Source: Actinomycetota bacterium (GTDB taxonomy: Bacteria; Actinomycetota; JAHEXW01; JAGVPG01). Taken from it: DNA of 41,341 nucleotides. Both the position numbers and the translations under genes were made by a program. The stretch is from NCBI GenBank assembly GCA_020052375.1, contig JAGVPG010000006.1:1-41341 (forward strand), given 5' to 3'. The notes beneath the pieces were generated by a model. The model had not been told where the DNA came from, made no database searches, and saw only the letters and a program-made list of their open reading frames with translations. Below are positions 5,992-15,873 of the stretch, piece by piece (within the stretch, counting starts at the first letter, position 1; the number at the start of each line of letters is the position of its first letter).

Positions 5992-8355
5992 TTAGTCCGA
6001 TTTGATCTCAACGTCAATAGCGGCGGTATCCGCTCCCGTATCATGGAACCATACTTTATCGCCGTCTATAAGATCGAGTTTGAGAGTGTAGTTGCCCGGC
6101 TTTTCGGGTGTCTTGACGGTTAAAGTCAGAAGTTCCGAGCCGCCTACTATGACTTTGTCCCGGATCGGAACTACAGCCGTGTATTCACCAGGCACTCCAT
6201 ATGTGAAGAAACCATATCCCAGCTTTATCCATCCTTCTCCCGGCCAATCGATCTTGCCTGTGTTTTTCACCCTTACTGAAAGATCGATCTGTTTGCCCGC
6301 TGTTAACACCGGGAACACCACCAAGTCGGTATATTCCGCTCCGTATGGATTGTCGACCACGACAGCTTTTCCGGGCATCGGTACGCCGTACTTGGAGAAC
6401 CATGTGTAGCCGTCGTCCTTAAGATCGAATCTAAGGGTATAGACCCCGGCAACGCTCGGACTTGTCAGTGGTACCGTTAAAAGGACTTGATCGCCCGGTT
6501 TCACAGTCTCCGGTAACGCTATCCCGTCGGTGTAACCGGAATGGTCGCCTTTATCCGTAAAGCTGTATGCCAGTTTTATCCTGCCGTTCGCCGGCCAGAC
6601 CATCTCCGATGTGTTTGTCAATCTGATCTTTGCCTCACCCGGATATCCCGCGACCAGATCGCCGATTGCGACATCGGTATACGATGCTTTATAGTCGCTT
6701 ATGACATGAACCGGCACGCTGAATATCTTAACGTCCTTCGATGAGAACCAGCCGATGGTCTCGTAATAAAGATCGAGTTTAAGATCGTAAGTACCCGGGA
6801 TCGACGGCGGATCGACTGTCACCGGGATCGTTATGTTCTCTCCCGGGGATACGTCCTGCGGCATCCTTATGCGTTGTGTATAGCCATCATGAGCACCTTT
6901 GTCGTCGAATGTGTAAGACAGTTGGACCAGGCCGTTCTGCGGCCACATCATCCTTGATGTATTGGTTATGTTCACATTGATGATCTTCGGCGTCGATACA
7001 TAAACCGGCTCGTAGTCTTCAAGGATCTTATATGAGGCGCCGAAATCCGGCATGATCTCGACATATGTTGAGTTCGTCGGTGCTCCCAGAGTAGAGAACC
7101 AGCTTCCCTTGCCGACCATGTCCTGTTTGAGTATGTAGCGGCCCGGGAGGGACGGCGTCCTTAAGTCGGCATTGAATCTTACTGTCTGACCCGGCGCGAT
7201 ATCCGTTTCAAGAATGCCAGCTTGCTGGTCGCTGATAGCTATTGCTCCGCTATCGATATTTATCCACCAGTAACCGGCTTTGACCTTGCCGGCCGGCCAC
7301 ACCATGCTGCTCTTATTGGTGACTTCGGGTTCGATGCGATATGAAGTCCCCGCGTACATCGCATTTCCTGTAATGCCCGAACCGCTAAAGGCCGCGTTGC
7401 ACAACGGATCGGCATTCTCTACTCTCACCGTTTTATCAAGTGTGTGCACCCCGGTGGTGGAAAAGGCGGTAACGCCCTCGTTTACCATATCGAATCTTAG
7501 ATTATATATCCCGGGGGTGATCGGCGGCGTCACCTGGAATAGAAGCAGCGCTTCGCCCTTCGGCGGGACGTCCTCCGGCATTGCCGTACCTGCAACATAC
7601 TGATCGTTGCCCTGGGTTCCCACGAACTGATAGTAAAGCTTGAAAGGAGAATCCTTCGGCCAGACTTTCTGACCCCTGTTCCTTACATAGATCGCTACGG
7701 TGTTCGGCTGGCCCGCATACATCTTCTCCTGAATATCTATGGCTTTATACGCCGCGTCATAATCGCGGTATGTTCCCGGGTATATGTATCCGGATATGCG
7801 CGAAGCAAACTCGTTCATGATATCCGCGATACTCTGAGCCCATGTCTTACTTGAAGCGTAATGAACATTCATACCTTGAAGTGTCGGACCGTATTCAGTG
7901 TAATAGTCTCCTCCGGGAGTCAGATACATCGTGTTTATATTGGAAGCGACATAGTCGATGTTGTCGGCGTAACTGTTGGAGCTTTCGGCCATGCCTTCCG
8001 GGTCGCGGTCGTACGCGCCCCAACCGTACAGGTTCTTCTTGTTCTGGGATATCCAGCTGAAACCCCAGCCGGATTCGAGGATGGCGTGGGCCATCAGGTA
8101 TACCGGGTCTATATTATACTTGGCGCCTACTTTCACCCACACCTGTCCCAAACCTACCATGGGGCTGTTCGGATATACGCTCCAGATGTAATTGTCGATA
8201 TCAGCGCCAGTGATCTGGGGATTGTGACGTAATGTGGTTTCGACGGTGTATTTTTCACGGTTGCTTTGCTCTTCCCCGATAGCACCGGATTGTGGTGCTA
8301 TTACCAGGATCACCATCGTTATGATAAGAAGAATGACCGTTAACTTTCGGCTCAC
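5992..8355 (-). CDS. secreted glucosaminidase-domain protein with five Ig-like repeats
   Basis: An exported cell-wall enzyme or adhesin of 787 residues. A signal peptide (residues 1 to about 26, MSRKLTVILLIITMVILVIAPQSGA) is followed by an N-acetylglucosaminidase domain of the FlgJ/LytG (GH73-like) type at about 50-190, with the probable catalytic Glu94 in AHAILESGWG and the NLYGWGAYD motif. Five repeats of about 100 residues follow (roughly 205-312, 333-434, 450-550, 565-667, 684-784). Each has an N-x-(G/S)-x-x-WP motif, a (V/A)-x-PG turn, P-x-x-(P/A)G-x-Y and a W/F-F segment, resembling NBR1-type or CARDB-like Ig folds. The start is GTG with AAGGTGG upstream. The gene stands alone with its own promoter. 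The enzyme class is confident; the exact peptidoglycan bond cut is inferred. Confidence 0.85.
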   Translation of the reverse strand: MSRKLTVILLIITMVILVIAPQSGAIGEEQSNREKYTVETTLRHNPQITGADIDNYIWSVYPNSPMVGLGQVWVKVGAKYNIDPVYLMAHAILESGWGFSWISQNKKNLYGWGAYDRDPEGMAESSNSYADNIDYVASNINTMYLTPGGDYYTEYGPTLQGMNVHYASSKTWAQSIADIMNEFASRISGYIYPGTYRDYDAAYKAIDIQEKMYAGQPNTVAIYVRNRGQKVWPKDSPFKLYYQFVGTQGNDQYVAGTAMPEDVPPKGEALLLFQVTPPITPGIYNLRFDMVNEGVTAFSTTGVHTLDKTVRVENADPLCNAAFSGSGITGNAMYAGTSYRIEPEVTNKSSMVWPAGKVKAGYWWINIDSGAIAISDQQAGILETDIAPGQTVRFNADLRTPSLPGRYILKQDMVGKGSWFSTLGAPTNSTYVEIMPDFGASYKILEDYEPVYVSTPKIINVNITNTSRMMWPQNGLVQLSYTFDDKGAHDGYTQRIRMPQDVSPGENITIPVTVDPPSIPGTYDLKLDLYYETIGWFSSKDVKIFSVPVHVISDYKASYTDVAIGDLVAGYPGEAKIRLTNTSEMVWPANGRIKLAYSFTDKGDHSGYTDGIALPETVKPGDQVLLTVPLTSPSVAGVYTLRFDLKDDGYTWFSKYGVPMPGKAVVVDNPYGAEYTDLVVFPVLTAGKQIDLSVRVKNTGKIDWPGEGWIKLGYGFFTYGVPGEYTAVVPIRDKVIVGGSELLTLTVKTPEKPGNYTLKLDLIDGDKVWFHDTGADTAAIDVEIKSD

Positions 8356-8505: not shown

Positions 8506-9258
8506 CTAAGGGGCGGATAAGGCTGCGCCGAGGGCGCCGACTATTTGAGGGTCCTCCGGTACGAAGATCTCGATCCGCAGCTTGTCCTCCAGGATCTTTT
8601 TCAAGCATCTGTTACGGGCGCCGCCGCCGGCGAAAAACAGGTCGCCGGATATGCCGACGCGGTTGATCATGGCGACGACGCGCTCGGCTATCGCTTCATG
8701 TACGCCATAGGCGATGTTTTCGCGTTCTTCACCGGCGCCGATCAGCGATACGACTTCGGACTCGGCGAAGACCGTGCACATACTGTTGATCTTTGACGGT
8801 TTCGGCGCTTTCATCGCCGCCTCTCCGAATTCGTCCAGCGTATAGTCTAGAGCTTTTGCCATGACCTCCAGGAACTTCCCGGTTCCCGCCGCGCACCGGT
8901 CGTTCATCTCAAAATCCGCCACTTTGCCTTCGTCCGACAGCTTGATCACCTTAACATCCTGCCCGCCGACATCCAGGATACCCGGATAACCGGCGTTTAT
9001 GGAGTTGGCTCCTATGGCAAATGCTTTGATCTCTGTCAGAACACTGGCGCCGTAGGCTTTCCTGAGCATATGCCGCCCGTATCCGGTGGCATATAGCATC
9101 TTTGGCTGGCCGCCGCTGAGTAGTCTATTGCACTGAGACAAGGGGTCGTGTGTGGTATCGGTGAGCTCGGACCGAACGACTTCACCCCTACCGAATTCGA
9201 CGAGGGCTATCGTCCTTGATCCGATATCGATTCCGACGACCGAATCCGCGGTATCCAT
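8506..9258 (-). CDS. CoA-substrate-specific enzyme activase (HgdC/BadF family)
   Basis: ATP-dependent one-electron donor of the ASKHA fold that normally activates 2-hydroxyacyl-CoA dehydratases or benzoyl-CoA reductase-type enzymes through a [4Fe-4S] cluster shared by a homodimer. The sequence has phosphate-1 GIDIGSRT (residues 9-16), LDVGGQDVKVI near 95-105, and the two cluster cysteines Cys122 (NDRCAAGTGKFLE) and Cys161 (SMCTVFAESEV). The 39-residue spacing is that known for HgdC. The C-terminal FAGGGARN nucleotide motif is present. It starts one base after the fdhE stop, so it is translationally coupled as last gene of the formate dehydrogenase operon. No dehydratase or reductase subunits are nearby, so its target is unknown. 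Confidence 0.9.
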   Translation of the reverse strand: MDTADSVVGIDIGSRTIALVEFGRGEVVRSELTDTTHDPLSQCNRLLSGGQPKMLYATGYGRHMLRKAYGASVLTEIKAFAIGANSINAGYPGILDVGGQDVKVIKLSDEGKVADFEMNDRCAAGTGKFLEVMAKALDYTLDEFGEAAMKAPKPSKINSMCTVFAESEVVSLIGAGEERENIAYGVHEAIAERVVAMINRVGISGDLFFAGGGARNRCLKKILEDKLRIEIFVPEDPQIVGALGAALSAP

Positions 9259-9259
9259 C

Positions 9260-10162
9260 TTATTCGGGGCCGATGGCGAACGTTACCCGCCCGCCAGGTT
9301 CATATCCCCTGTCTTTGGCGATGAAATCGAGTTCGATCGTCGCAAGGTCCTCGACATCGAGATCGATCTCGCGGTCGAGCTTCCTTTTATCCGTGGTTTT
9401 TATGTATTTCTTGCAGTTGTTGCAGATGTATACGAGATGGGCTTCGTCGTCTGTAGAGTAGAAGTACTCGAGTTTATCCTCATCCTTGGTCATGCATATA
9501 GCGCACTGCTTTCGAGGATACGACCACCAGCTCTTACACGTCGAACACTGGAGTATCCTCAGCCCGTCATCATCCGTCAACATCGCCATACTCGGTTTCC
9601 GGCCGCATACCGGACACACCGGCTGCTGCCATTTCTCGTAATCGATCCTGTCTCTATACGCATAGGAGGCCTTCTCGATGAATGGATTCGTCGTATGATA
9701 GATTATGAAGAACATGAGCTCGTTGTTCAGAGGTATTCGTTTAGCCAGATCGGTAAAATATTCCGTCCTGAACTCCAAGGCGTTCTGTATCAGTACCGGC
9801 GTCTTTTTACCGTCCGACTCTTTAAGGTCCGGGTTTTTAAGAAGATCCTCTACCGACTCCTCGAATGATTCATTTGTCTTGGCGATCACACCACATATGT
9901 CGCTTAGCATGTCTTTGAACACACCGCTATCTATCCCGATGTCACCCGTGTTTAATAGCGGCATGTTGTTTTTAAGACGAACGGCGAGCTTTTCGTCGTC
10001 CAGTTCCGGTACAGAGACTTCCATCTTCTCCAGATACCCGGATTCGATCTCGAATAAAGAACGGTACAGAGCAAGAAGATCCACAAGCTCGGGTTTCAAT
10101 TTACTGTAATACTCCATTTCGGAACGTATCTGATCGATTGTCAGCGGTTTCTGTTTAGGCAT
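9260..10162 (-). CDS. fdhE: formate dehydrogenase accessory protein FdhE
   Basis: Cytoplasmic maturation factor for respiratory formate dehydrogenases. It is 300 residues with the FdhE arrangement: a helical N-terminal half and a C-terminal part with four cysteine pairs, CPVC (184/187), CSTC (207/210), CAIC (221/224) and CNNC (248/251), which bind iron or zinc in rubredoxin-like modules. The ATG at 10162 overlaps the TGA of the cytochrome b gene by one base (TGATG); a TTG one codon earlier is less likely. Context in a formate dehydrogenase operon supports the assignment. Confidence 0.9.
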   Translation of the reverse strand: MPKQKPLTIDQIRSEMEYYSKLKPELVDLLALYRSLFEIESGYLEKMEVSVPELDDEKLAVRLKNNMPLLNTGDIGIDSGVFKDMLSDICGVIAKTNESFEESVEDLLKNPDLKESDGKKTPVLIQNALEFRTEYFTDLAKRIPLNNELMFFIIYHTTNPFIEKASYAYRDRIDYEKWQQPVCPVCGRKPSMAMLTDDDGLRILQCSTCKSWWSYPRKQCAICMTKDEDKLEYFYSTDDEAHLVYICNNCKKYIKTTDKRKLDREIDLDVEDLATIELDFIAKDRGYEPGGRVTFAIGPE

Positions 10163-10833
10163 CAATTAAGCTCCTTAGCTTCTTTTTTTAACTCATTATA
10201 CCATCTAGACCATCCGGATTTTGCTTCGATTTCCGGTACATAGCCTGTAACCATGGATGTCCATGAACGGCGCGTAGCCGGGAACAGCAGTCCCATATAC
10301 AGATGCATGGCAACTATAAAGACAAGCGCGGCAGTACACAGATCATGCACGATGTATGTCCAGCGGACGATGTCCGCCGGCAGATCTTGTGCCGCCCACA
10401 TCATCATGCCGGACGCGGATATCACGACAGCGAACCCGATTATGAACCAGGCGCTTACTTTCTGGCCCGCTTTTTCCTTTCCTTGCTGCGGAAGCTTGAC
10501 TGATTGCGGACGTAACATCCACTTCAAGAACCTCCGCATCCAGGCCGAATCGTTCTTGTCCCATGTCAGTATCGTTTTCATGAACCGGCCTGTTCCGCGT
10601 CCGAAGACAAGCATGGCGGCGACTGGTATGACCACGAATATCACCGCGGCGATGTGGTGGATAGTCTGTCCCACTAAGAGATCGCCGCTTAGGAGCACGT
10701 GAGTCTCCGGCCGCAGCCTGGCTACGCCTGTATATAAAAGCGTAAAGAAGCTTAACAGATGGACTGCATGTATCAGCCGCGCCGCCAATGAAAACCTTAA
10801 TACTTTTCCATCCTTAAACACCTGCTTACTCAC
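10162..10833 (-). CDS. fdhC: formate dehydrogenase cytochrome b subunit (FdnI/FdoI-like)
   Basis: Membrane subunit that takes electrons from the FeS subunit and passes them to quinone through two b hemes. From the GTG at 10833 it has 223 residues, close to E. coli FdnI. Four membrane segments are visible (HAVHLLSFFTLLYTG, IHHIAAVIFVVIPVAAMLV, WFIIGFAVVISASGMMMW, DLCTAALVFIVAMHLYMGLL), with candidate heme histidines in RLIHAVH, HHIA, YIVHDL and MHLYMG. The frame is open to an ATG at 10929, but that would add a KEVKEVKEV-type repeat tail and overlap the FeS gene by 104 bases. The GTG at 10833 overlaps the FeS stop by eight bases, with AAAGGG upstream, and is preferred. Confidence 0.9.
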   Translation of the reverse strand: MSKQVFKDGKVLRFSLAARLIHAVHLLSFFTLLYTGVARLRPETHVLLSGDLLVGQTIHHIAAVIFVVIPVAAMLVFGRGTGRFMKTILTWDKNDSAWMRRFLKWMLRPQSVKLPQQGKEKAGQKVSAWFIIGFAVVISASGMMMWAAQDLPADIVRWTYIVHDLCTAALVFIVAMHLYMGLLFPATRRSWTSMVTGYVPEIEAKSGWSRWYNELKKEAKELN

Positions 10834-11665
10834 TTTGCTTTTTCCCTTTATCTCCTCGACTTCCTTCATCTCCTTGACTTCTTTGACTTCCTTGACCTCT
10901 TTGACTTCCTTTATACCCAGTCGATCCAAGTAGACTCACCAAAGCCGCTAAACCCGCTCCGCCGCCGGCGACCGCTATCATCGGTTTAAAAACGTCCTGC
11001 CAGATATTAACGGAAAGAGGGACTGTGGGTTTTTCCGGAAATCCATAAAACGACGGTGATGAAGTAAGCAAAAACATGACTCCCAGTCCGCCGAGTTCCT
11101 TTTCTCCGTAAAGCCCGGCGTCCTTAAAGCCCCGTTTCTTTAGCTTGCCCAACCTCATCTTTGCGATCGCGACCATGATCGACCGCTCTCCGAACATCAC
11201 CGCTTCCGGCGCACAGACCTTGGCACATGCGGGGATCTGTCCGTTCGAGATCCGGTCGACACACAACGTACACTTCTCGACTGTGTTTGTCTGCACATTA
11301 TAACGAGGCACATCAAAGGGACAAGCCGATATGCAGTATTTGCAGCCGGTACATTTTTCCGCGTCTATGACCACCGCGGTCGAAAGCCGGTGTGATATAG
11401 CTTTTGGCGGACATACTTGTTCGCATGCGGCGTCAGTACAGTGCTGGCAGAGCACTCTCCGGAATTGCCATTTTACTTCATCACCCACGGCTTCTTCGAT
11501 AAACGCGACACGGGTCCATGTCTGAGCCGAAAGGTCCGGAGGATTCTCGTAACTTCCCTGGTTCTGCGTGCGTTCCGCGTGCCGCAGGTTCCACTCCTTA
11601 CAGGCGACCTGGCAAGCCCTGCATCCTATGCATCTTGACACGTCTACAAGCATCGCCGTTGCCAT
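10826..11665 (-). CDS. fdhB: formate dehydrogenase iron-sulfur subunit (FdnH/FdhB-like)
   Basis: Electron-transfer subunit with four [4Fe-4S] clusters linking the catalytic subunit to cytochrome b. Sixteen cysteines fall in four ferredoxin-type groups: CIGCRACQVAC (residues 12-22), CQHCTDAACEQVC, CTGCKYCISAC and CTLCVDRISNGQIPACAKVC. A hydrophobic stretch near residue 235 (PMIAVAGGGAGLAALVSLLG) fits the C-terminal membrane anchor of this family. The last 30 residues are a low-complexity GSQRGQGSQRSQG-type tail encoded by a 9-bp repeat. The start ATG lies three bases after the fdhA stop. Confidence 0.93.
   Translation of the reverse strand: MATAMLVDVSRCIGCRACQVACKEWNLRHAERTQNQGSYENPPDLSAQTWTRVAFIEEAVGDEVKWQFRRVLCQHCTDAACEQVCPPKAISHRLSTAVVIDAEKCTGCKYCISACPFDVPRYNVQTNTVEKCTLCVDRISNGQIPACAKVCAPEAVMFGERSIMVAIAKMRLGKLKKRGFKDAGLYGEKELGGLGVMFLLTSSPSFYGFPEKPTVPLSVNIWQDVFKPMIAVAGGGAGLAALVSLLGSTGYKGSQRGQGSQRSQGDEGSRGDKGKKQSE
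10851..10914 (-). repeat. 9-bp tandem repeat at the FeS/cytochrome b junction
   Basis: Degenerate repeats of GAAGTCAAG on the minus strand, about seven units. In the FeS frame they encode the Ser/Gln/Gly/Arg tail; in the frame of cytochrome b upstream of its preferred start they would encode KEVKEVKEM. Copy number could vary without shifting either frame because the unit is a multiple of three. Confidence 0.75.
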
Positions 11666-11668
11666 ACG

Positions 11669-14600
11669 CTAACCCACTTTCCTTATGTCGACCAGGAATG
11701 CTTTATATTCCGGCATACCCGTATTCGGATCGTATACGTTCGATGTCACCTGATTCGCCGAGTAGTCTTTGTCTTCATCGCCTCCGGTCACATATCCTAC
11801 AAAGCCGTAATGGTCCGGCATACTCACTGCTTCCGGCGCGTTCGGGGATAGTTCAAACGGCTTGATCCGGTTGGTCACGATCGCCACGCCGGTCACTTCT
11901 CCACGAGGTGATATGACTTTTACCTTGTTTCCGTTTTCGATACCATGCCTTGCCGCAAGCTCAGGACTTATCTCTATGAACATCTCCGGCATCATCTCAG
12001 CCAACCATGGCAGATTCCTGCTGATCGAGCCCGTTTGCCAGTGTTCCGCGACCCGGCAGGTAAACCCTATGTACGGGTACTTGGACGAGCCCGGCTCCAC
12101 CATCTTGTCCATGTCCGATTGCCAGATCTTGACCAGCGGATTATTCTGTTGCCCGCTTAACAGGTTATTGGAAGGCGATTCGACCGGCTCGTAATGCTCG
12201 GTCAGCGGTCCGTCTTTTATAAGCCCGTCCGGTATGAAAAAGCGGGCTTGTCCTTCCGGCAACATGATGAACGGGCTTTTTGCCGTCTTATCAGGCGTAA
12301 CGATGGCCCCCGCGACATCTTTAATGCTGAAGTCGGGAACGTCGTTGTTGACCCATTTTGCTCCGTCCCAACTGACGAGCATTCTTCTTTTGTCATAAGG
12401 GACACCTTCGGCGTTGGCCGAACACCTGTTATAGATGATGCGGCGGTTCAAAGGCCACGAATATGCCCATTCCGGATACAGTCCCAGTTTATCCGGGTCT
12501 CTGCTTGTATCCGTTTGCGCGGCTCTGTTATCCGCTTTCTTATCCCCCGGATAAAAACCGGAGTATATCCAGTTCCCGCACATAGTGGAACCGTCGTCGC
12601 TCAGTTTTGTAAAATTGATGATCTGCGTTTTATCGGTTACGGTGAATCCGTTTATCTCTTTCGCCACCAGATGAGGATCAGGCTCATCATCTCCGTAATC
12701 CCAGTTGAGTTTCAGGAGCGGTTCGGAGAACTTGGCAGTTGCCTCTTGAGAATATGCATCCTTGAGCGCCTTAAAAAGACTGTCTATGATCCATAGGTCG
12801 GGCCTGGCTTCTCCGGGAGGATCAGCCGCTTTGTTCATCCACTGGATCAAGCGCGCCGAGTTCGTGACGCTTCCTTCTTTCTCGAAAGACGCGGCTGCCG
12901 GCAATAAAAAGACCTCGGTCCGGACGTCTTCCGGCTTCATGCCGGGCCTTTTCCAGAACACGCTCGTTTCAGTCTCGAACAGATCGCTTACGACGAGCCA
13001 GTCCAGCTTGGTGAGAGCGGCGGCGGTCATGTTCGCATTGGGACCGCTAAGGACCGGGTTCTGCCCCCAGCAGAGCAGGCCGTTGATCTTATCCGCGTAC
13101 ATCGCCTCGAAGAGCGGTACCCAGGAGTAGCCGCTCTTGTCATAGCCGTCCCCCAATTTCGGCAGGAACTCGTAGAGAAAGTCATTTTCCTCCGTGGCAT
13201 ACTCTCCCCACCATGCTTTAAGGAGGCTGACAAACCATTTTGTCTTATTTACTGCGTAACCCGACTTCGCCACCTCGGCATCCTTGTACCTTGAGAAGGT
13301 CTCATGCTTGGAAGCGAGAGGCATGTTCAAGTACCCGGGTAAAAGATTAAAGAGAAGGCCGAAGTCCGTCGAACCCTGGACGTTCGCGGCGCCGCGCAGC
13401 GCGTTCAGACCCCCACCGGCGATCCCTATGTTACCGAGCAGCAGCTGAACCATACCGGCTGCCCTTACGTTTTGCGTGCCTGTAGTATGCTGAGTCAGAC
13501 CCATGGCATAGAGGATCGTCCCTGATCTATCGGGCTTTCCGGTGCGGCAAAACGCGTCGGCGATCTTCTTGAACGAATCTTCGGACATACCGCATATCTT
13601 TGATACCCGATCAGCAGTATATCTCGAGTAGTGGTCTCTCATAAGCTCCAGGACACAGTTCGGATTGTTGAAATCCGTGTCTTTTGAGACCTCTCCATTG
13701 AGCTGAAGCTGATACGTCCACGTGTCGTAATCATATGACTTTAAGTCTTCATCATACCCGCTGAACACCCCGTCTTTGAAACTGAAGCCCGGATTTACGA
13801 GGTAAGAGGCGTTCGTATAGTTCTTTATATACTCCTCGTGATATAGCTTGTTTGTAATGATGTAATTGATCAGGCCGCCAAAAAAGGCGGCGTCCGTTCC
13901 CGGACGGATCCGCGCAAATGTATCCGCTTTGGCAGCCGTCCTTGTGAATCTCGGATCGACGACGATCAGTTTGGCGCCTTTATCTTTTGCCGCGGTGATC
14001 CATTTGAAAGATACAGGATGGTTTTCCGCGGGATTCGCGCCGCAGACAAGTATGACATCCGCGTTCTTTAAGTCTATCCATGAATTCGTCATTGCTCCTC
14101 TGCCAAACGTAGGACCGAGACCGGCCACAGTCGGAGAGTGTCATATGCGCGCCTGGTGCTCGAGAAAAACGATACCAAGAGATCGCGCCAGCTTTGCCAG
14201 CAGATAACATTCCTCGTTGTCCAGCGCCGCTCCACCGAGTTGCGCCAGGCCTTCCGTCCTGTTGACAACGATCCCCTTTTTATCTTTCACCTTGAACGTC
14301 TTGTCGCGGGCTTTTAACATCCGCGTAGCTATCTCCCGCAACGCCCAATCCCAGTTCTTTTTCTCCCACTTATCGGAGCCGGGCGCTCTATATAGGACAG
14401 ATCTCAACCGTCTATTGTTATTGGCTAATTCATAGAGAGCCTGGCCTTTACTGCATAGTGTGCCGCGGTTAATGGGATGATCCGGATTTCCCTCGATCGA
14501 TTGGACCTTGCCGTTGGATGTTGAAGTATGTACGATCACGCCGCAACCGACCGAGCAGAAACCGCAAATGGTCGACGTCTCTCTCGCTCCGGCTGTCTTA

Positions 14601-14719
14601 AGTCTCTCGGCTGCTCTAGCAACCGGGACAAGATCCAGGCCAAGGCAGTTCACAGCAGACAAAGCGGCAATGCTTCCTGTCAGTTTTAGGAAATCCCGCC
14701 TTGAGAGACCGGAGGTCAA
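11669..14719 (-). CDS. fdhA: formate dehydrogenase catalytic subunit, selenocysteine-containing (FdnG-like)
   Basis: Molybdenum or tungsten bis-MGD enzyme oxidising formate to CO2. It reads as one 1016-residue protein if the in-frame TGA at 14143-14141 (codon 193) is selenocysteine. The context ARI-U-HSPTVAGLGPTFGRGAMTN matches the Sec site of E. coli FdnG (1015 residues), and an SECIS-like hairpin follows. A twin-arginine signal (SRRDFLKLTG, residues 6-15) predicts export of the folded enzyme. A [4Fe-4S] site is formed by Cys52, Cys55, Cys59 and Cys89. The C-terminal domain carries the usual MGD-binding region (SPRGEVTGVAIVTNR). It lies between a thioredoxin lipoprotein gene and the FeS subunit. 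Automatic calling would split it into 192- and 819-residue frames; that is not a frameshift. Confidence 0.96.
14113..14143 (-). promoter_or_regulatory. selenocysteine codon and bacterial SECIS-like hairpin in fdhA
   Basis: UGA (14143-14141) is followed after 14 bases by GGCCG-GUCU-CGGUC (14126-14113), a five-pair stem (one G-U pair) with a GUCU loop. The GU in the loop and the distance from UGA fit the SelB-binding hairpin of E. coli fdnG and fdhF. Confidence 0.85.
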
Positions 14720-14741
14720 TTTATAAGTCCTCCTTTTTGTT

Positions 14742-15143
14742 CTATGAACCGGTTCGGCACTTGGCGATGTTCTTAGAGATGAAATGCTCGAGTGACTTTA
14801 AAGGAACCCCGCCAGACAGCCGGTCGACGATCTTGCCTTTCTGGTCGACGATGATAAAGGTCGGTATCGTTGTGATCTTGTATCTGTCGGCTAGCTTGGC
14901 GTTGGCAGGTTCTGTTATATCGTATGTCACGAATTGCAGACGTGTTTCGTATCTATGTCCGACCCGGTCCAATCCTGGCTTCATCTTCAAACAGCGCGGG
15001 CACGTCGGATCGTAGAAACCATAGACCTTGATCCCGCTAGGCGTTACAGTCGTAGTACAACCGCTTGTCACCAGCGCAAGAAAGCATACGAATATGAGGG
15101 TCTTGAGGATACTTCTTGTCCCTATCATCCCGGCTTTAGGCAT
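14742..15143 (-). CDS. thioredoxin-fold lipoprotein
   Basis: Predicted extracytoplasmic thiol-disulfide protein, 133 residues. The N-terminus is a lipoprotein signal with lipobox-like LVTSGC (Cys29). The redox motif CPRC is at 48-51 (FYDPTCPRCLK), followed by a thioredoxin-fold order with the cis-proline loop TIPTF and IIVDQKGKIVDRLSG. It overlaps the rex stop by eight bases and is 22 bases before fdhA, so it belongs to the same operon. A role in keeping extracytoplasmic cysteines or selenocysteine of the formate dehydrogenase in the right state is a guess from position. The family is clear; the substrate is unknown. Confidence 0.85.
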   Translation of the reverse strand: MPKAGMIGTRSILKTLIFVCFLALVTSGCTTTVTPSGIKVYGFYDPTCPRCLKMKPGLDRVGHRYETRLQFVTYDITEPANAKLADRYKITTIPTFIIVDQKGKIVDRLSGGVPLKSLEHFISKNIAKCRTGS

Positions 15144-15777
15144 TCCTCTTCACGACGCGAGTCAGATAGTAAAGGGTATGGAGAAGCTCGCGCGCAGGAT
15201 CGGATGTGTGAACCTGGATCTCTTCCGGTACGGTTACCGGCGTCGCCGTATAGTTAAGAATTATATTAACACCGCTCTCCACAAGGATATCGGCTATTTT
15301 TTGTGCCACTTCACCAGGTACGGCAACAATCGCTATTTTTATCTTGTTCTCCGTCAAGATTTCCTTTATATCTGAGATGTCTCTTACCTGCACCCCATTG
15401 ATCTTCTTCCCGATCTTCTCCGGATTGCTGTCAAAGACGTGCGATATCTTGAAACCTTGCTCCTGTAGCCCGCTATACCCCATAAGCGCCCCACCGAGCT
15501 GTCCGACTCCGATAAGCGCTATCTCCGTTACACGCTTGACGTCAAGGATGTCGGATATGACCGAGATCAGCTTATCAACGTCATACCCTAGTCCACGTCT
15601 CCCGAAAGACCCGAAATAAGAAAGGTCGCGGCGTATCTGTGCCGGATTGACACGCGCGCTCATGCTTAGTTTCTGGGATGATATGACCGATTTGCCCGTT
15701 CTCTTGTATGCTACGAGACATCTAAGATAGGACGACAAACGTTCGATAACACCCTCTGGTACTCGTCCTGTTTCCAT
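15136..15777 (-). CDS. rex: redox-sensing transcriptional repressor Rex
   Basis: NADH/NAD+-responsive repressor: it binds DNA when NAD+ is high and leaves when NADH accumulates. It is 213 residues with an N-terminal winged helix (about 11-80, including QIRRDLSYFGSFGRRGLGY, the family signature) and a Rossmann domain with GVGQLGGALMGY (90-101). The C-terminal domain-swapped helix (ELLHTLYYLTRVV) is present. The start ATG has GGAG upstream. It is the first gene of the formate dehydrogenase operon, and a Rex-type operator lies upstream, predicting autoregulation and control of formate oxidation. Confidence 0.96.
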   Translation of the reverse strand: METGRVPEGVIERLSSYLRCLVAYKRTGKSVISSQKLSMSARVNPAQIRRDLSYFGSFGRRGLGYDVDKLISVISDILDVKRVTEIALIGVGQLGGALMGYSGLQEQGFKISHVFDSNPEKIGKKINGVQVRDISDIKEILTENKIKIAIVAVPGEVAQKIADILVESGVNIILNYTATPVTVPEEIQVHTSDPARELLHTLYYLTRVVKRNA

Positions 15778-15823
15778 GATTCTCCTCGATGAAACAATGG
15801 ATTAATGTAACAACATATATATC

Positions 15824-15853
15824 ATATTACCGCATTTGTAATCATCATTACAA
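15824..15853 (-). promoter_or_regulatory. putative rex operon promoter
   Basis: Minus-strand TTGTAA (15853-15848), 18-base spacer, TAATAT (15829-15824). The Rex operator overlaps the -35 box and spacer, so bound Rex would block polymerase. Confidence 0.55.
15836..15853. promoter_or_regulatory. Rex operator upstream of rex-fdh operon
   Basis: TTGTAATCATCATTACAA is a perfect 7-4-7 inverted repeat with the 18-bp geometry and outer TTGT/ACAA bases of the known Rex operator TTGTGAA-N4-TTCACAA. A second overlapping repeat, TTACAAA-CTT-TTTGTAA, spans 15848-15864. It lies 59 bases from the rex start codon and covers the -35 box. Confidence 0.85.
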
Positions 15854-15873
15854 ACTTTTTGTAACAAAATCTT

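Follow-up and report, generated by a model that had tools for sequence, protein, structure and literature searches.

A predicted Rex-autoregulated operon for a selenocysteine-containing formate dehydrogenase in an Actinomycetota bacterium, and the kinship of its activase with partners of double-cubane cluster proteins

Introduction

How is a formate dehydrogenase operon controlled when its first gene encodes the repressor Rex, and what might be the role of the activase gene that closes it? This question is raised by seven genes in a stretch of 41,341 bp from an Actinomycetota bacterium (GenBank assembly GCA_020052375.1, contig JAGVPG010000006.1, here contig C12), the whole of which is hereinafter called the window. 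The source genome (G000) has a size of 1.64 Mb, consists of 35 contigs and is 95.4% complete. Rex regulons are characterized by TTGT-N10-ACAA operators, autoregulation and control of anaerobic energy genes, and the window is similar to them in its Rex family protein, its operator form, its predicted autoregulation and its anaerobic energy genes. A first-pass annotation, made from the sequence alone, had proposed direct NADH/NAD+ control of a periplasmic formate-oxidising respiratory complex, with feedback on rex itself. Our analysis favours, with a probability of about 0.72, a Rex-autoregulated operon for a selenocysteine (Sec)-containing, membrane-bound, outward-facing formate dehydrogenase of the formate dehydrogenase-N (FDH-N) type, which also includes an activase of the kind associated with double-cubane cluster proteins (DCCPs).

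Operon Structure and the Putative Rex Operator

The seven genes are located on the minus strand (15777-8506) in the order rex, thioredoxin-like lipoprotein gene, fdhA, fdhB, fdhC, fdhE and activase gene, and the gene coordinates bear out the earlier statement that they overlap or are separated by no more than 22 bases. Comparisons were made primarily with G001, the nearest relative in hand with the window-type rex. The features were as follows:

15836..15853, no strand assigned: putative Rex operator, perfect 7-4-7 palindrome TTGTAATCATCATTACAA, conserved in G001, with similar sites before rex in genomes G047 and G093.
15136..15777, minus strand: rex, predicted NADH/NAD+-sensing repressor, 213 aa (NF003995, 252 bits, and NF003993, 222.8 bits, both above cut-off).
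14742..15143, minus strand: thioredoxin-like lipoprotein (PF00085, 44.6 bits; by eye, a CPRC motif and a lipobox), overlapping rex by 8 bases.
11669..14719, minus strand: fdhA, FDH-N alpha subunit, selenoprotein (TIGR01553, 1216 bits, cut-off 814.2), 22 bases from the lipoprotein gene.
14141..14143, minus strand: TGA read as selenocysteine (U193), in frame in the formate dehydrogenase active-site motif; Sec machinery on contig C3 of the same genome.
10826..11665, minus strand: fdhB, iron-sulfur subunit (TIGR01582, 241.5 bits, below the cut-off of 334.7; PF13247), 3 bases from fdhA.
10162..10929, minus strand: fdhC, cytochrome b subunit (PF01292, 70.7 bits; TIGR01583, 97.3 bits, below the cut-off of 115.85).
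9260..10165, minus strand: divergent fdhE-like accessory protein (PF24859 and PF24860 above cut-off; TIGR01562, 62.4 bits, below cut-off), overlapping fdhC by 4 bases.
8506..9258, minus strand: activase (BadF/activase family, of the kind pairing with DCCPs; TIGR00241, 222.7 bits, above cut-off), 1 base from fdhE.

The window Rex contained the N-terminal DNA-binding domain and the Rossmann domain (PF06971 and PF02629, both above cut-off) and matched the solved Rex structure 5zz5 with an E-value of 1e-42. The perfect inverted repeat reported by the first-pass annotation was found at the coordinates given above, 58 bases upstream of rex. In its loose form, TTGT-N10-ACAA, the site was unremarkable (one in the window against 0.37 expected), and the window contained nine perfect 7-4-7 palindromes of any sequence. 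When the 120 bases preceding rex were shuffled 200,000 times as single bases, however, a perfect 7-4-7 palindrome beginning with TTGT arose in 16 of the trials, and on account of this rarity its placement is not considered to be due to chance. In G001, whose Rex is 71% identical, 17 of the 18 operator bases were kept, while the adjoining flanks agreed at chance level (6/20 and 8/20), which is the reverse of the pattern named beforehand as fatal to the proposal, namely, an operator lost in relatives that retain the other promoter bases. A Rex match was present in 114 of the 149 relatives searched, and neighbourhoods were taken for 20 regions; an exact TTGT-N10-ACAA core lay within 300 bases upstream of rex at 3 of the 20 rex loci examined for it, namely, in G001 and in two genomes of family f18 (G047 and G093), whose rex stands alone. 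The earlier placement of the repeat over the -35 box is plausible when the promoter is read by eye (TTGTAA-18-TAATAT), whereas the promoter scan listed no promoter at the palindrome.

At low NADH, Rex would occupy the palindrome over the promoter and repress rex together with the six genes behind it; as NADH rises, Rex would be released, and formate dehydrogenase and its maturation factor FdhE would be made.

Selenocysteine in FdhA and the Type of the Complex

The fdhA gene was split into two open reading frames by one in-frame TGA, and reading through it gave a single protein of 1016 residues with the active-site motif HQARI-U-HSPTVAGLGPTFGRGAMTNSW. The genes selD (C3:72413), selA, selB and that of tRNA-Sec (C3:77110) were clustered on contig C3, and since this machinery is present in the genome, the reading of the TGA as selenocysteine is well founded. 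The first-pass annotation had named the closing gene only as an activase, and it had missed both the selenocysteine and the kinship of the activase with DCCP partners.

A twin-arginine leader of FdhA, read by eye, together with the FDH-N type of the protein, permits the fair inference of a respiratory enzyme facing the periplasm, and the periplasmic formate-oxidising complex proposed earlier stands on the same grounds, the direction of electron flow being a predicted one. The beta and gamma subunits did not reach the equivalog cut-offs for FDH-N (241.5 vs 334.7 and 97.3 vs 115.85 bits), but these models were still their best hits; the complex is therefore FDH-N-like and not a strict member of the type. 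The overlap of fdhC with fdhB arises only with the longest possible fdhC start, and the true start is probably inside the annotated reading frame. Compared with FDH-N operons that include FdhE, the window has the same Sec-containing alpha subunit with twin-arginine leader, iron-sulfur beta subunit, cytochrome b gamma subunit and FdhE, but it starts with rex and a thioredoxin-like lipoprotein gene, ends with an activase gene, and its beta, gamma and FdhE proteins fall below the strict models.

A second FDH-N gene set was identified in the same genome (C26:1106-5928); it is preceded by a thioredoxin-like gene, and its fdhB looks frameshifted; its alpha subunit (C26:1422-4463) contains Sec and is 63% identical to the window FdhA, and neither rex nor the operator was found at this set. 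Contig C16 carried a 92-base tRNA (7670-7761) with the Cys anticodon GCA, which passed the Rfam tRNA-Sec cut-off (50.7 bits) and directly preceded a second selB (C16:7780-9696). Judged from sequence, the two look like a selC*/selB* tRNA-Cys system. Such systems are placed in Firmicutes, Thermodesulfobacteria, Nitrospirae and Proteobacteria in passages of a review (PMC7609411), and the example described here belongs to Actinomycetota, outside the phyla listed in those passages.

The Activase and the DCCP Partner of Its Relatives

The window activase was intact and had the cysteines C122 and C161 in common with other activases; these residues are presumably cluster ligands. In a pattern scan of one genome per species (84,980 species), 44 activase-type loci were found. 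A DCCP-like gene adjoined 39 of them, all at 44% identity or more (36 genes near full length and 3 partial matches only), whereas no DCCP neighbour was seen at the remaining five (33-40% identity). Two of the 36 near full-length DCCPs (loci L121 and L131) had reading frames broken as assembled, and 29 of the 36 were used to build a DCCP profile. The DCCP neighbour scored 498.5 bits with NF040772 (cut-off 350), the profile matched the Carboxydothermus hydrogenoformans structures 6eno and 7yyl over the whole length (633-635 bits), and the window activase aligned with the 7yyl activase across residues 8-249. The window differs from the C. hydrogenoformans pair in having no DCCP, and in many relatives the two genes are situated within or close to clusters of selenium genes.

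One of the 39 loci (L090) is that of G001, where the order was rex, fdhE, DUF3343, DCCP, activase, then LysR_Se (opposite strand), selD, yedF, selA and selB. Comparison of the two gene orders suggests that the window operon and the rex-fdhE-DCCP-activase arrangement of G001 may be related by gain or loss, which would have affected fdhABC in the one and DUF3343 and DCCP in the other.

A DCCP was not found in the source genome by the profile search at E 1e-80, and with the completeness of 95.4% it may have been missed. The sole PF06050 match above cut-off in this genome was a distant protein on contig C6 (C6:75499-76449), with no activase adjoining and beside genes that appear by eye to be of queuosine type. 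As the missing partner, this HGD-D protein was not supported (weak DCCP match of 29.8 bits, the said queuosine-type neighbours).

The presence of a DCCP at all 39 close relatives (three as partial matches), its apparent absence from the source genome and the fuller arrangement in G001 would also be expected if the activase were a leftover after DCCP loss, with no special importance for formate dehydrogenase. This is a serious alternative, to which we assign somewhat less than even odds, although the activase has remained intact, retains C122 and C161 and lies one base behind fdhE, and a DCCP may have escaped detection in the part of the genome that is missing. In the preferred reading, the activase is an ATP-driven electron donor of the kind that works with DCCP, the pair being linked to selenium genes in relatives, and here it probably serves the maturation of the selenoenzyme or its supply with selenium, or else another reductase. 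A role of the window activase in selenium metabolism, taken alone, is tentative and on the unlikely side.

Selenium Genes in the Neighbourhood and in the Genomes of DCCP Carriers

At least one of the genes yedE, yedF, DUF3343, selD, selA and selB was present at 18 of the 39 activase-DCCP loci and at none of 30 control loci (580,491 vs 478,359 bases); the reference proteins were taken from L090 and L091, both among the 39, so a match at these two loci follows from the choice of references. Curated models confirmed LysR_Se, YedF, YedE and SelD above cut-off, while DUF3343 (72 aa, no NCBIfam match) was assigned by eye, and its count is probably too low.

The DCCP profile (threshold E 1e-80) matched in 45 of 396 genomes of the phylum, of which 39 were counted as full members; a shorter relative of 334-350 bits (G076, G098, G109, G152 and G227) and a copy cut by a contig end (G254) were set aside. 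Judged from the listed E-values, selB above cut-off occurred in 37 of the 39 DCCP genomes and in 177 of the 357 others (214/396 overall; Fisher p = 8e-9), this p-value and that given below being too small, since the genomes are related and both kinship and the common anaerobic lifestyle are ignored. With G254 counted, the proportion was 37/40; on the same E-values, neither G254 nor any of the five genomes with the shorter relative had selB above cut-off. As for selD, 37 of the 38 other genomes reached through the pair loci had it, one of them (G406) with a match slightly below cut-off, compared with 20 of 32 genomes of the phylum that lack DCCP (p = 3e-4). SelD was itself a selenoprotein, with an in-frame TGA, in all 36 DCCP-bearing genomes with the start covered (loci L091-L127) and in 7 of 20 DCCP-free ones.

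Several points weigh against the selenium reading. At 21 of the 39 DCCP loci, all six of the selenium genes looked for were absent; two DCCP-bearing genomes, G093 (97% complete) and G359 (77%), had neither selB above cut-off nor selD; and the co-occurrence of DCCP with selenium genes may reflect a common anaerobic life.

Rex in Related Genomes and Alternatives to Control by Rex

The rex-fdh neighbourhood in family f6 and the rex-fdhE-DUF3343-DCCP-activase order in G001 speak for the Rex-controlled operon; several other observations weigh against it. In f6, another family of the same phylum, a Sec-containing fdhA follows rex in three genomes (G006, G104 and G147); fdhB and fdhE were also seen at these loci in G006 and G104, and the G147 locus ends at a contig end. 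However, TTGT-N10-ACAA was absent from the f6 loci, both at rex and between rex and fdhA, and the f6 and window Rex proteins fell into separate clades of the Rex tree. For these two reasons, the rex-fdh neighbourhood may have arisen twice, and the claim that f6 proves the inheritance of rex and fdh as a unit was abandoned. G001, in turn, has the operator, rex and fdhE but no fdhA at that locus. A second Rex encoded in the source genome, 43% identical to the window Rex, could compete for the operator. Genome-wide motif counts were near those of the reversed control (24 vs 18 for TTGT-N10-ACAA, 57 vs 50 with two mismatches, and 8 vs 3), so no further targets of a Rex regulon can be named, and the suggestion that other anaerobic genes are under the same operator was not borne out. 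Finally, the RNA fold behind the fdhA TGA, considered as a SECIS stem-loop, was no better than in shuffles (-17.9 kcal/mol, z -0.98). An Rfam scan across the window gave zero matches. The earlier interpretation is partly supported: the Rex models, the conserved operator, the f18 sites and the f6 rex-fdh neighbourhood favour it, and the lack of the operator in f6, the second Rex and the second FDH-N set devoid of rex and operator do not.

The second rex (C24:65880-66488) is surrounded by a cluster of multihaem cytochrome genes; it has counterparts in G001 and G002 and no clear operator. Two further good palindromes of Rex form were noted in intergenic DNA of contig C1 (gene names by eye). The first, at C1:71991-72008, is flanked by an ABC transporter gene that starts 25 bases away and, on its opposite side, by a gene for a tungstate-type binding protein; the second, at C1:75344-75361, lies between NfeD-like and metal P-type ATPase genes. 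Both are at most candidate Rex sites.

Rex might control only rex from the palindrome, with the fdh genes following under a promoter of their own. The f18 genomes, in which a lone rex has the same kind of operator, and the f6 loci, where rex and fdhA are 363 to 561 bases apart with room for a separate promoter, are in agreement with such an arrangement; in the window, however, the genes overlap or lie at most 22 bases apart, so that a promoter between rex and fdhA could be situated only inside coding sequence, and we regard this alternative as improbable. That a different regulator, or the C24 Rex, is the one that uses the palindrome, as the presence of two Rex proteins and the lack of a clear operator at the C24 copy might indicate, is very unlikely, since the operator accompanies the window-type rex in G001 and rex in f18 but not the C24-type rex of G000, G001 and G002, where no TTGT-N10-ACAA core occurs within 300 bases upstream.

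Relation to Known Systems and Biological Significance

In titles and the openings of abstracts, no description was found of a Sec-FDH-N operon headed by rex; this coverage does not extend to the principal comparative study of Rex regulons, so such a description may be in print. Lin et al. 2015 (PMC5322559) give, in Table 1, two STRING neighbours of YedE, YedF, DUF3343 or LysR_Se in Slackia, namely, a CoA-enzyme activase and a 2-hydroxyglutaryl-CoA dehydratase subunit; within the passages covered, the two proteins appear only in this table, with no tie to DCCP. By term search, neither the activase nor the dehydratase subunit is mentioned in a review from 2022 on selenium in prokaryotes (PMC9312934), and a passage of a 2025 paper (PMC11971306) describes the biological function of archetypical DCCPs as unknown. 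Among the literature listings and passages covered, which do not include two PNAS papers on DCCPs, no link between DCCP and selenium metabolism was found. NCBI has given neighbouring accession numbers to its models for DCCP (NF040772), for selenocysteine lyase (NF040779) and for LysR_Se (NF040786), and for this reason curators may already have seen such a link.

A possible, though rather unlikely, explanation of the association with selenium genes is that DCCP and its ATP-driven activase would belong to selenium metabolism and supply electrons of very low potential to make or deliver selenide, for example through the reduction of selenite, of elemental selenium or of a selenium carrier, for use by SelD and in the assembly of selenoproteins. 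In this lineage, the pair, or the activase alone, would then have been placed under Rex, so that selenium supply and the Sec-containing formate dehydrogenase would both follow NADH.

By itself, the operon adds a tidy new example of formate respiration under predicted NADH-sensing control and is mostly ordinary. What the activase points to, DCCP and selenium, is of more lasting interest: gene neighbourhoods and co-occurrence suggest selenium metabolism as the place to seek the function of DCCPs.

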